Positions 2,072 through 50,497 of a DNA stretch of 64,000 bases are shown here, piece by piece (within the stretch, counting starts at the first letter, position 1; each line of letters starts with the position of its first letter). This stretch comes from a bacterium (GTDB taxonomy: Bacteria; Desulfobacterota; Deferrisomatia; Deferrisomatales; BM512), in NCBI GenBank assembly GCA_004322275.1, contig SCTA01000040.1:70138-134137 (forward strand), written 5' to 3'. The position numbers and the translations under genes were made by a program. The notes beneath the pieces were generated by a model. The model worked only from the letters and a program-made list of their open reading frames with translations, searched no databases and was not told where the DNA came from.

Positions 2072-2905
2072 CTAGAAGAGTGTACCTGAGGCCGCCCAGA
2101 AGAAGTGGTCGCTGACGGTAAGACCAGCACCGCCACTTATCGATGAACTCATGCCGGAGACGATGTTGTTTTGTCCCCCGCTAACCGATGCCCAATCATT
2201 TGCTGTTGTATTTCCTCTGCCGCCGCTGACAGATGCAGCATAGCCGCCTGCCACATTTTCGTTGCCGCCGCTAACTGAGGAGTTGCTCCCGGAGGCCACG
2301 TTGAATGCCCCGCCGCTAACCGAAGAATTGCCTCCGGAAGTTATGTTGCCTGCTCCGCCGCTAATCGAAGAGTATTCGGCTTCCGCTCTGTTGCCGGACC
2401 CTCCTGAAATACTGGCAAAATTAGCTACGACTGCATTGTTGTCACCAGCCAGGAATCCTGCGTAACCGGTGAATTCGTGTGACAACCCCACCACGAAGTT
2501 GTGAGAACCTGTGCGCAAGCGGCTATTGGCTGCATTGTTCTCGTTGTAGCCGACGATGAGATTGCCGAGGCCAACTGGAGAAGGATACCCCCAAGTTGCA
2601 CCCGAACCGTCGCGGACGTGGAAGTTGGCTCCGGTGAAGATAACGTGGGGACCGGCGAGGCCGTTGATGGAGTTGGTGTCTACGCCGACATAACCATCGA
2701 GTTGGAGAGCGGTATTCGCTTCGACCGCTGACAGCCTGCCTTCAAGTTCTACGGGGGCATATGCTTCAAGTTGCACCACCCTCGCAGTGAGCGCCGCGAC
2801 CGCCGCCTGTAGCGCCACGATGTCGTCCTGGGTGTTGGCCGAGGCGGTGCCCGCCTGAATGGCCATAAAAATGCCGAGTGCGAGAATTCCGAGTTTTGAC
2901 TTCAT
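2072..2905 (-). CDS. Secreted 15-residue-repeat beta-roll protein
   Basis: A 277-residue exported protein. Residues 1-23 are a Sec signal peptide ending A-S-A. Residues 25-65 form a short heptad-like coiled coil (Q-D-D-I-V-A-L-Q). Residues 164-268 hold seven consecutive 15-residue units of the pattern (S/A)-S-(V/I)-S-G-G-x-x-N-x-x-x-x-x-x, preceded by degenerate units from about 134. The pattern recalls the left-handed beta-roll of YadA-type adhesin heads, whose repeat is usually 14 residues. There is no C-terminal YadA anchor or LPXTG; the protein stops at W-A-A-S-G-T-L-F. It may therefore be secreted or assembled with a partner, possibly as a trimer through the coiled coil. An adhesin or surface-fibre role is inference. 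A structured leader precedes the gene and a strong terminator follows it. Confidence 0.7.
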   Translation of the reverse strand: MKSKLGILALGIFMAIQAGTASANTQDDIVALQAAVAALTARVVQLEAYAPVELEGRLSAVEANTALQLDGYVGVDTNSINGLAGPHVIFTGANFHVRDGSGATWGYPSPVGLGNLIVGYNENNAANSRLRTGSHNFVVGLSHEFTGYAGFLAGDNNAVVANFASISGGSGNRAEAEYSSISGGAGNITSGGNSSVSGGAFNVASGSNSSVSGGNENVAGGYAASVSGGRGNTTANDWASVSGGQNNIVSGMSSSISGGAGLTVSDHFFWAASGTLF

Positions 2906-2985
2906 CTCTTTTTCTCCGGTTCAAGGTGAGAGCCTGACGGGAATCGCCAGGCTGCGTCGACCGGCTTCAACCGGCCTTATTTACC
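2906..2985 (-). promoter_or_regulatory. Structured 5' leader, possible degenerate GEMM-type riboswitch
   Basis: Just upstream of the beta-roll gene the minus-strand transcript can fold into nested stems. CCGGTTgAAG near 2973 can pair with CTTgAACCGG near 2920. Inside lies a hairpin CCGG-TTGAAG-CCGG, then GACGCAGCC, then a stem GCCTG...CAGGC. The order hairpin, GACGCA, GCC resembles the core of c-di-GMP-I (GEMM) riboswitches (GAAA-type hairpin, then GACGCAAAGCC), but two core A residues and the tetraloop receptor are missing. The structure is visible; ligand binding is speculative. Confidence 0.3.
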
Positions 2986-3020
2986 TGTTATCGTGCGGTA
3001 TTTTTTACACTCCCGGCGAT

Positions 3021-3062
3021 AAAAAAGGCCGCCCTCCGTGACCCAATCACAGAAAGCGGCCT
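3021..3062 (-). terminator. Terminator-like hairpin with T-tract
   Basis: AGGCCGC (3026-3032) pairs with GCGGCCT (3056-3062) around an inner GTGA...TCAC stem. On the minus strand the stem is followed by six T residues. It lies upstream of the beta-roll leader with no gene directly before it, so it may end a small RNA or readthrough transcript. Confidence 0.55.
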
Positions 3063-3449
3063 CTATGCTTACAAGCCCACCCCCTGTACTGGCTGTCGGC
3101 TAACGTGTCGCATCTTCGCACAGGGGGGGCACGCAAGGGTTATCCATCGTGGCGCTACAAGGCAATGTCGCAGCCATCATGGCTAGCTGTAAAAATTTAC
3201 CTTCGAGTCCAAAAACATTCCGTTAACCTGTTTTTGGACGAGCCTTCACTTCGTTCCCCCCTCGGGGCCATCTTTAGGTGGCTTGGGGCGCGGGTGCGGG
3301 GCGCGCCAAGCCCCGCTAGCTGTAAAACCTGCGAAGCACACAAAAGACTCTGGATTCCCGCCCTTCGGGCGAGAATGACGACAGAGGCGTCGCCTTTCGC
3401 TTCGCTCAATCACGACCTACGCTATCGCGGAGCCGCAACCTGCATTTTC
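3063..3449. repeat. Gene-free stretch full of inverted repeats
   Basis: No convincing coding frame is present. Several independent palindromes are visible: CCCCCTGT...ACAGGGGG around 3078-3126; a perfect 11-bp stem (3207-3217 with 3229-3239); a long GC stem near 3279-3312 (GGCTTGG...CCAAGCC); and CGCCC-TTC-GGGCG near 3358-3371, within a sequence that looks like a dispersed proteobacterial intergenic repeat. The density suggests a cluster of REP-like elements or eroded mobile DNA. Confidence 0.5.
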
Positions 3450-48152: not shown

Positions 48153-48186
48153 TAAGAGGCCCCGCTTTTAACAGCGGGGCCTCTTA
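48153..48186 (-). terminator. Strong terminator after the OFA gene
   Basis: A perfect 14-bp stem (48153-48166 with 48173-48186) with loop TTTAAC. The minus strand continues TTTTGTTTGC, so it serves the minus-strand transporter gene. Confidence 0.85.
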
Positions 48187-48230
48187 CTCCTCCCACGGGT
48201 AACCCGGGGGCTTCCTCTAATAAATCAAAT

Positions 48231-50081
48231 TTAAGCCGCTTTCGCCACACGTTCCGCTTCTTCGACGGAGACGGCCTTGACCTTCTTGTCGCGAAGCGTG
48301 AGAGTCAGGGCGGCGCCCACCATCAGGAGAACGCCTGCGGTGATGAAGCCGAGGTCAAAAGAGCCGGTGGTGGCCTTCAGCATCTCGCTGACCCTGCCCA
48401 TCACGAAGCCGCCGATGCCCCACGCGGTGAAGAGAGCGCCGTAGTTGATGCCGAAATTCTTGAGGCCCCAGAGGTCCTTCGCGAAAGAGGGGAAGAGGCT
48501 CAGGTTGGTGCCGTAGTTAAAGCCGATGGCGGAGGCCAGAAGCACCAGCATGATGGCGCTGGGGGACTTGGAGCTGACCACGGGGATTGCTACGAACATA
48601 AGGGCTGCCTGTACGGAGAGCATTATAAAAAGGGTGTTGGCCCTGCCGATCTTGTCGGAAACCATTCCGGCGATGATTCTGCCGGCGGCATTGCCTATCG
48701 CCATAAGCGCGACGGCCAGGAAGGCCATTTCGCCCATGGAGGCTTTCGCCATGCCGGAGATCGAGCCGATAACCATGAGCCCCGCGCCGGAACCGACGAA
48801 GAAAGCGGTCCAGAGGGTGTAGAAGGGCACTGTGCGGATAATCTGGGAAGGAGTCGCGTCCACGGTGGCGGCGGCCTTCTTGGTGGCGGCGGCGTTAGCG
48901 TTGCTCATCGAGCCTTCCGGCACGTAACCCTTGGGGGGGTTGACCAGCAGCATGGAGAGCGCGCTTACCACGGCGGTGAAGGCGATGCCGTAGATAAGCA
49001 TGGATTTCTGGACGCCGTAGTGATTCAGCAGATAGTTGGAAAGGGGCGCGATGTAGACGGAGGCGAGGCCGAAACCGCTGACCACTATGCCCGCGATGAC
49101 GCCGGTTTTCGCCGGGGGAAACCACTTGAGGGCGGGCGGGGTGGCGGCGCAGTAGCCGAAGCCGATGCCCATTCCCGCGAGGCCGCCGAAGCCGAGAACC
49201 CACATCCAGTAGCTGGTCGTTGTAGAGACGAGAATAAAACCTGCTCCGACCAGAAGACCGCCGACGAGGGCGGTGAGGCGCGGCCCGAAGCGATCCTGAA
49301 CCCTGCCCGCGATAATCATCGCTACGGCGAAGACCAGACAGCAGACGGCGTAAGGGTCGTTGATGGAGGCGAGATCCCAGTTGAACTCTCCGCCCTTTTC
49401 GATGGAGGCCTTGATCGCTCCCTTGAAGATCGACCAGGCGTAAAGGATTCCCAGCGCCAGGTTTATGCCTGTGCCGGCCAGCGCGACTGTCCAGCCCTTG
49501 CTGATTTTACTCATCTTCTCTCTCCCTTTGGTTTGATATTCCTGTTTGACTTCTTTTCTCTCAAATTCCAGGGGCGCCTTCACCTCTTCGGGTTCGACGC
49601 CCGCTTCCAAACCGTCGAAAAGCGCTTCAACCGTCTTTTTAAGCCTGCGGGATTCCTCAAGGATGATGTTGACGAACTTCTGCCGGGTGGCCGAATCCCT
49701 GTCGGGGTGGGCGGCCAGTATCTCGGCGGAAGACATAATCGCCGTAAGGGGGGTTCTAAGCTCGTGCTGGAGCACGCCTCTGGCGACCTCGGAGGAGGCC
49801 GCGCCGCGCAGGGTGGGACGGGGGGAAATTCTTGCGGGTTCTTTGGGAGAAGGAGCCATGCCGCTCCACTTCTCCGCGAGCATCGTGTAGCGGGAGCAGT
49901 TCTGGTGGCGGCCGTTGCAGAAGCGGACCATCGTCTCTACGTCGTGAACCGAAGAATCGGGACCGCCGACGTCGCACCACCCCTCGCGGCCGAAGAAGCG
50001 GCACACCGCCCCTTTCGCCGTTTTTGCTTCGCTGGTTGTAGAAGAGTTCGCCGTGGCCAATTTCATTCCTCCCAAGCGCAT
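48231..50081 (-). CDS. OFA-family MFS transporter in frame with a HisKA-like N-terminal extension
   Basis: One uninterrupted 616-codon frame. Residues ~190-600 are a 12-helix MFS transporter of the oxalate/formate antiporter group (K-G-W-T-V-A-L-A-G-T-G-I-N-L at the start of its first helix). Residues 1-189 are unrelated to transporters: four cysteines (C27, C36, C55, C62), then a histidine-kinase dimerisation helix pair with L-Q-H-E-L-R-T-P-L-T (H106). No HATPase domain follows. The internal ATG at 49514 has a good ribosome site (AAAGGGAGAGAGAAG), so the transporter may also be made alone. At the upstream end ATG 50081, ATG 50066 and TTG 50060 compete; GGAGG fits the TTG best. The substrate is unknown; oxalate, formate or another organic anion is possible. 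Confidence 0.75.
   Translation of the reverse strand: MRLGGMKLATANSSTTSEAKTAKGAVCRFFGREGWCDVGGPDSSVHDVETMVRFCNGRHQNCSRYTMLAEKWSGMAPSPKEPARISPRPTLRGAASSEVARGVLQHELRTPLTAIMSSAEILAAHPDRDSATRQKFVNIILEESRRLKKTVEALFDGLEAGVEPEEVKAPLEFERKEVKQEYQTKGREKMSKISKGWTVALAGTGINLALGILYAWSIFKGAIKASIEKGGEFNWDLASINDPYAVCCLVFAVAMIIAGRVQDRFGPRLTALVGGLLVGAGFILVSTTTSYWMWVLGFGGLAGMGIGFGYCAATPPALKWFPPAKTGVIAGIVVSGFGLASVYIAPLSNYLLNHYGVQKSMLIYGIAFTAVVSALSMLLVNPPKGYVPEGSMSNANAAATKKAAATVDATPSQIIRTVPFYTLWTAFFVGSGAGLMVIGSISGMAKASMGEMAFLAVALMAIGNAAGRIIAGMVSDKIGRANTLFIMLSVQAALMFVAIPVVSSKSPSAIMLVLLASAIGFNYGTNLSLFPSFAKDLWGLKNFGINYGALFTAWGIGGFVMGRVSEMLKATTGSFDLGFITAGVLLMVGAALTLTLRDKKVKAVSVEEAERVAKAA
49514..49529 (-). promoter_or_regulatory. 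Internal ribosome site for a stand-alone OFA transporter
   Basis: On the minus strand, AAAGGGAGAGAGAAG immediately precedes ATG 49514, which matches the usual first codon of OFA transporters. It offers an independent start within the 616-codon frame. Confidence 0.55.
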
Positions 50082-50497
50082 TCGCTTTCGCTATAGGAGT
50101 ATTACAAGAGCCGTGCCACGGTTTTAAAACGCCATTTAATAATTTATTATCCTTTATTTACAGATACTTATGCCTTGTCGTGTGCAAGGGCTGAAAAACT
50201 GCTGTTTCGCATTTTGGCGAAATATTAAAAAAGCCCCGTCAACTTGAAACCGGCGGGGCAATATTATTTTATTAAGTTATTTCGGTGAGTTACTGAACTT
50301 TTCGCAAACCGGCGAGTAGGAGAAGAGGTTTTTCGCAAAACTGCGAATCATTCTGGCTTTTTCACCCCGTCACCTACGCTCAACCCAACCGGCTGCGGAC
50401 TAAAAGTTTTTTTAACACGAAGCCAAAGTACGCTCATGCGCATCAAAAAAACTTGAAATAGCGCTAGTTTGCAAAGAACAGGCAAGGAGGTTGCAAG
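50082..50497. other. Gene-free region between the OFA and CGGC genes
   Basis: AT-rich around 50100-50290. It should contain divergent promoters for the two flanking genes and one hairpin (50233-50259). No supported coding frame was found; a 135-codon minus frame at 50348-50755 is antisense to the CGGC gene and rejected. Confidence 0.45.
50227..50262. terminator. Hairpin with flanking A/T runs
   Basis: GCCCCG (50233-50238) pairs with CGGGGC (50254-50259), extended by AATATT arms. The minus strand continues TTTTTTAATATT and the plus strand ATATTATTTT, so it could end transcripts in either direction. Confidence 0.5.

Follow-up and report, generated by a model that had tools for sequence, protein, structure and literature searches.

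A 616-codon uninterrupted frame on the minus strand, at positions 48231-50081 of the 64,000-nucleotide stretch of DNA analysed here (the window), joins a four-cysteine module, for which we coined the name Cys4, to a HisKA/DHp hairpin and an MFS transporter of the SfMCT type. The first-pass annotation had described the same frame and left out its strand. We establish the frame and its domains, their conservation in relatives, an internal ribosome site, the gene neighbourhood and a promoter-like site. The reading of the whole that we favour, and to which we give an even chance, is a two-product gene for a lactate-type transporter in which a Cys4-DHp front end would be regulatory and would feed back on a two-component response.

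Domains and products of the window gene

The features of the gene, in its direction of transcription, are as follows.

50104..50118, minus strand: sigma-54-type (-24/-12) promoter-like site TGGCACGGCTCTTGT, score 19/21
50068..50073, minus strand: candidate ribosome site GGGAGG for the long product, from duplex energies and sequence
49863..50015, minus strand: Cys4 module, C27-x8-C36-x18-C55-x6-C62, of no known family, from two alignments
49617..49772, minus strand: HisKA/DHp hairpin, H106-E107-x-x-T110, with no ATPase domain after it (PF00512, 8.5e-11)
49515..49616, minus strand: linker from DHp to transporter, poorly conserved (dN 0.52, G000 versus G001)
49522..49526, minus strand: internal ribosome site GGGAG ahead of the transporter ATG (49514-49512), -8.4 kcal/mol
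48231..49514, minus strand: SfMCT-type MFS transporter, probably for L-lactate or another monocarboxylate, 427 aa plus stop (NF049980; PDB 6g9x)

The long product probably starts at codon 6 (ATG, 50066-50064) or codon 8 (TTG, 50060-50058), where duplex energies are -6.1 and -10.2 kcal/mol, and not at the ATG at 50081, where the ribosome site is almost nil (-0.4 kcal/mol) and the sigma-54-type promoter is about 23 nt away. On the minus strand the transporter stop is followed directly, at 48159-48188, by a GC-rich inverted repeat and then a T-rich stretch, which look terminator-like by eye. Farther upstream of the gene lie an Hsp70-like ORF and a HEAT-repeat ORF.

What had been noted simply as a Cys-rich segment contains four cysteines (27, 36, 55 and 62), each invariant in two alignments. 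The module belongs to no known family: the N-terminal 98 residues of the window protein had a best Pfam match of E 0.099 and none in NCBIfam, no Pfam or NCBIfam family was matched by more than one of 20 Cys4 members or with any credibility, and a PDB sequence search with Cys4 returned nothing below E 0.68. Its region of the AlphaFold2 model is unreliable (pLDDT about 40-50). The module may bind a metal or Fe-S centre, to which the four invariant cysteines would point. The hairpin that follows is more familiar. HisKA (PF00512) matches residues 104-155 with 42.2 bits against a cut-off of 26.9 and places H106 within Q-H-E-L-R-T-P-L, whereas no HATPase family matches the 616-aa protein in Pfam at up to E 1 and no HATPase-like remnant was seen in it, so the earlier description of an H-box without an ATPase domain is borne out. 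AlphaFold2 models the DHp as a two-helix hairpin (pLDDT about 69-79); the front end as a whole has a mean pLDDT of 50.9, and the rest of its model is unusable.

The transporter had been called complete and OFA-type, and the family name needs revising. The SfMCT model NF049980 matches residues 197-585 with 411.9 bits against a cut-off of 320, covering profile positions 2-378 of 378, and the protein also matches Pfam MFS_1 (residues 214-560) and PDB 6g9x, which is SfMCT (4.6e-52). Both OFA models fall short of their cut-offs (TIGR00890, 216.1 versus 374.85 bits; TIGR04259, 160.2 versus 335 bits), so the transporter is better placed in the SfMCT branch. Its substrate is probably a monocarboxylate, L-lactate.

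Both a long and a short protein are likely to be made from this gene. Ranked by ribosome site, the transporter ATG (codon 190) comes first among the 23 in-frame ATGs examined. The first-pass annotation had already noted a strong internal site there, and the site is conserved: the corresponding ATG ranks between first and fourth among 15-25 in-frame ATGs in each of the first ten MFS fusions, and 20 of 20 further fusions have a transporter-start site of -7.4 kcal/mol or better. A strong site in every MFS fusion examined (30 of 30) makes the two-product arrangement, left open earlier, likely. The frame has no stop after the conserved module, so any ribosome translating it must read on through the transporter and give the long product. 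Fusions of Cys4 to AceTr transporters differ in this respect. A comparable internal ATG is present in five of 14 (L218, L220, L221, L222 and L228); in the other nine, and in G342 and G324, no ATG with a comparable site precedes the transporter core, although L217 has TTG and GTG codons with sites at -8.5 and -7.4. The lack of an internal ATG start in most AceTr fusions argues that covalent fusion is functional there.

Conservation, separate versions and breadth

When 59 genomes, among them G000 (the genome of the window), were searched with the N-terminal 189 aa, frames of 610-725 aa in G001, G002, G004, G006 and G008 matched strongly, and these frames include the transporter. The fusion for which the first-pass annotation had proposed a homologue search does recur, and with G000 the Cys4-DHp-SfMCT frame is found in six of the 12 genomes of the order, spanning three families. 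Across 395 genomes of the phylum, a Cys4-HisKA profile matched at full length, among the matches listed, in these six only. A seventh member of the order, G005, has Cys4 and transporter in 581 aa without the DHp. These seven genomes also share an SfMCT orthologue (67-100% identity) and a close homologue of the sigma-54 response regulator (59-100%); in the other five of the 12, where the best regulator match is 43-47% identical, no Cys4 fusion, SfMCT orthologue or close regulator homologue was found. No module was found in the further SfMCT paralogues of G006 and G008 (57-58% identity).

Judged from codon comparisons, Cys4 and DHp are under purifying selection and amino-acid constraint in the linker is slight. 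Cys4 has a dN of 0.11 and a dS of 1.44 between G000 and G001, a pair in which linker dN reaches 0.52 against 0.11-0.15 in the two N-terminal domains; between G002 and G004, dN is 0.044 and dS 1.29 for Cys4, and dN is 0.038 with saturated dS for HisKA. Linkers of nine different lengths occur among 21 fusions (G133 included), every one in frame, at loci that were chosen for long frames. Each of the six fused linkers alone, however, has a 9-36% chance of containing no stop, which counts against our preferred explanation.

The front end also exists as a gene of its own. In Competibacteraceae/Contendobacter (L026, L027, L036 and L039) Cys4-DHp is encoded by an ORF of its own that ends just ahead of the transporter, and in L026 and L027 the two share one frame with a single stop between them. 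The first-pass annotation had taken a stop between the parts in relatives as the mark of accidental readthrough. The stop is real in this family but does not carry that meaning, because what lies upstream is an intact gene for a Cys4-DHp protein, likewise without an ATPase, and the fused domains are under selection elsewhere. A separate, intact version points to a real gene and not to the wreckage of a kinase. L040 (Desulfuromonas BM302) was considered as a further fusion but not retained, as a Cys4 motif was not seen in any of the three forward frames of 2750-3400; a linker-like NWPL motif is nevertheless present there.

A DHp without Cys4 accompanies a more distant SfMCT clade (Desulfosarcina and relatives), encoded by a short ORF (about 75 aa) placed after a sigma-54 regulator and ahead of the transporter. 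Four of five loci (L054, L066, L092 and L065) have this DHp-only ORF behind the regulator, which is 33-35% identical to the window-type regulator; at the fifth, L060, the ORF is upstream of the transporter but no sigma-54 regulator was matched at the locus. At L058, L061 and L063 the regulator is present and no DHp-only ORF was seen between it and the transporter. In a tree of 73 transporters, the Cys4-linked ones belong to a single 45-member group (support 85/94), which includes five rows labelled 'none', L047 wrongly so, with a Cys4 ORF some 500 nt ahead of its transporter frame; the DHp-only transporters form another group (100/98 branch), and deep relations are weakly supported. This separation suggests that the association with a DHp probably arose at least twice.

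Cys4 itself is much more widespread. A 20-sequence profile matched 204 of 277 genomes in the class of G342, a different class from that of the window, as small stand-alone proteins or transporter fusions, and one of 274 in the gammaproteobacterial class of G395, namely G395 itself, which suggests local acquisition of the Competibacteraceae copy. Among the matches listed for the class of G342, at least 23 open frames are 506-686 aa long and at least 18 are 216-340 aa, with the remainder mostly 50-162 aa. We examined 20 of the 23 long frames (L194-L213) and 15 of the 18 medium ones (L214-L228). All 20 long frames hold Cys4 together with SfMCT-type sequence, L210 being broken inside the transporter, and 14 of the 15 medium frames hold Cys4 together with AceTr, the exception being L215, a 283-aa Cys4 frame. 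AceTr was confirmed by Pfam and NCBIfam in G342 and by Pfam in G324. Within a redundant set of 87 Cys4 frames, at loci from other families, a single one, from Competibacteraceae, has a DHp. The transporter-DHp fusion described in the first-pass annotation holds up, but that Cys4 is the more widespread partner was overlooked there; because G005 and almost every other Cys4 protein do without the DHp, it cannot be essential to Cys4-transporter function. All five stand-alone Cys4 genes examined are followed by a gene of an unnamed membrane-like family of about 350-390 aa with no Pfam or NCBIfam match (L155:4003-5157, minus strand; homologues at L148, L149, L151-L154, L156 and L229-L233), which SfMCT adjoins in several of the stand-alone Cys4 loci.

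Signalling neighbourhood and possible roles of the front end

In six of the seven genomes (G001, G002, G004, G005, G006 and G008) a kinase/regulator pair lies directly upstream of the fused gene, consisting in G001 of a dCache_2-HAMP-HisKA-HATPase kinase and a receiver-AAA+-HTH_8 regulator of the NtrC type; G000 has the pair unlinked, on contig C28 (79% identity for the regulator and 70% for the kinase). A candidate two-component partner, for which the first-pass annotation had suggested looking, is present. The upstream kinase of G002 (L136, 7312-9292) reads as two frames and may be broken or mis-assembled. Sigma-54-type sites scoring at least 18/21, with weights set in this analysis, were found upstream of Cys4 ORFs in 62 of 68 rows (L027 and L154 contribute two rows each); 1.5% of shuffles score as high, as do 7.8% of windows drawn at random from these loci. 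We infer that the pair controls the fused transporter gene. A layout kept in relatives beside a sensor/regulator pair argues for a transporter that takes part in signalling and against a decayed gene.

What the DHp could contribute is constrained by its residues. In HisKA proteins, according to PMC3510030, a T or N at H+4 is needed for phosphatase and not for kinase activity, and the acidic residue that follows the H serves kinase activity. The H, R, P and L of the H-box are invariant across the order and Competibacteraceae, the HE-x-x-T box is intact in most DHp members aligned, and all 15 non-kinase DHp sequences in that alignment have T, S or N at H+4. In L065 and L060 the histidine is replaced by N or F with the Asn at H+4 retained, and the DHp of G008 lacks the acidic residue (HTVRTPL). 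With no ATPase on the DHp, self-phosphorylation in cis is impossible, which would leave docking, phosphatase activity or phosphate storage; a phosphatase or docking role appears to suit the window DHp best. A copy of the neighbouring pair's own kinase DHp was rejected as its origin (HELRTPL versus HEINNPL). Among the kinases aligned, it is nearer to the DHp of a GAF kinase on contig C14 of G000 than to that of the pair's kinase, so its partner may be another system. Directly upstream of this GAF kinase is a HAMP-PAS-RNase_T exonuclease protein (L158:3158-5278).

In our preferred reading, the long form would carry Cys4 and DHp as a regulatory front end in the cytoplasm, and the short form, initiated at the internal ribosome site, would be the bare transporter. 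The general arrangement would be Cys4 beside or fused to a small-acid transporter, behind a sigma-54-type promoter and usually with a dCache kinase and an NtrC-type regulator nearby. Having no ATPase, the DHp could dock either a kinase or a response regulator, of which the NtrC-type one is the simplest candidate, and as a phosphatase or phosphate sink it would let the loaded, working transporter feed back on the response. A bolder version, which we put forward tentatively and consider rather unlikely in its full form, is an inverse transceptor, in which the DHp and a Cys4 redox or metal sensor on the transporter N-terminus would dephosphorylate or sequester the NtrC-type regulator driving their own synthesis. 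Internal initiation would then fix the proportion of long form to bare transporter, and transporter occupancy and the redox state of the cell would together set the two-component response.

The front end might instead act on the transporter, with Cys4 as a redox or metal switch gating transport or stability and the DHp merely dimerising the long form, without phosphate chemistry. We regard this as a doubtful but serious alternative: at the loci examined, small-acid transporters have Cys4 fused to them or next to them, while the DHp is rare, and in Cys4-AceTr genes that have no plausible internal start the transporter must carry the module. Such a switch leaves unexplained, however, both the invariance of the four H-box residues across the order and Competibacteraceae and the recurrence of a DHp-only gene in a second SfMCT group, behind a sigma-54 regulator in four of five loci. 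If phosphate chemistry is involved, the DHp might also be a relay, passing phosphate from the ATPase domain of a kinase in trans to a regulator. Spo0B and ChpT take phosphate from a kinase and pass it to a regulator in this way. The box, intact in most members, would allow it, but the loss of the histidine in L065 and L060 and of the acidic residue in G008, together with the lack of any HATPase-like remnant in the window ORF, makes a relay improbable.

Two further explanations would deny the front end a signalling role. The module could serve purely to couple translation, as a leader delivering ribosomes to the internal start, the long form having no role of its own; the ribosome site at the transporter ATG in all 30 MFS fusions fits this, and translation of CbrA downstream of CbrX needs upstream translation, according to PMC6591292. 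We give this little credence, as Cys4 and DHp are conserved at the amino-acid level and there are Cys4-AceTr fusions with no internal start. Least credible of all is the fallback of the first-pass annotation, in which a kinase gene has decayed and is read through by accident, or else an assembly error. The stop between the parts in some relatives is what speaks for it, and chance readthrough, decay and misassembly alike are ruled out, as far as we can judge, by the recurrence of the frame in six genomes from three families, the intact stand-alone Cys4-DHp genes and purifying selection on both N-terminal domains.

Relation to known transporter-linked systems

The literature searched, in which subscription papers are mostly not included, yielded no description of Cys4 or of a kinase-less DHp front end on such transporters. 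Within that literature the fused gene is a variant of transporter-linked two-component regulation that has not been described, with Cys4 as its wider core. If our preferred reading is correct, it would represent a second way to wire a transporter to a two-component system, through a DHp alone on the transporter N-terminus. Cys4, undescribed, widespread and tied to two small-acid transporter families behind sigma-54-type promoters, makes the sensing of lactate and acetate supply in these bacteria testable.

A close parallel is with the transceptors, SLC5-STAC histidine kinases of the CbrA/CrbS type, which likewise combine a transporter and two-component parts in a single chain. In these the SLC5 transporter comes first, followed by a C-terminal signalling half with an ATPase. 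The window protein matches MFS_1 and not SSF, its HisKA is N-terminal and it has no HATPase, so the earlier view of a phospho-acceptor-type helix pair on a transporter, distinct from CbrA, is upheld. Genomes of the same taxonomic order as the window also encode GAF-HisKA-HATPase proteins of 1115-1141 aa, which rank with the best DHp matches there; unlike the window protein they are complete kinases with an ATPase and a C-terminal signalling half. Three with a long N-terminus (L234:60-3461, L235:2821-6165 and L236:4057-7479) were scanned, two of which match SSF, one under the cut-off, and all three are possible SLC5-type transceptors. Their counterpart among the DHp matches of G000 is a GAF kinase of 468 aa.

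A small upstream partner is known from the same systems. CbrX is encoded just upstream of the transporter-kinase CbrA and translationally coupled to it (PMC6591292), and it was found bound to the CbrA transporter domain (PMC13022988); in the available parts of both papers it is not described as a Cys4 or DHp protein. On the transporter side, the counterpart is SfMCT, the L-lactate transporter and SLC16 homologue of Syntrophobacter fumaroxidans, whose model NF049980 the window transporter passes; the 420-aa SfMCT chain in 6g9x aligns to window residues 197-598 only and lacks the Cys4-DHp front end. The YaaH/AceTr acetate transporters fused to Cys4 in G342 and G324 have no DHp and belong to a different transporter family (PF01184), but they carry the same N-terminal Cys4 on a small-acid transporter.
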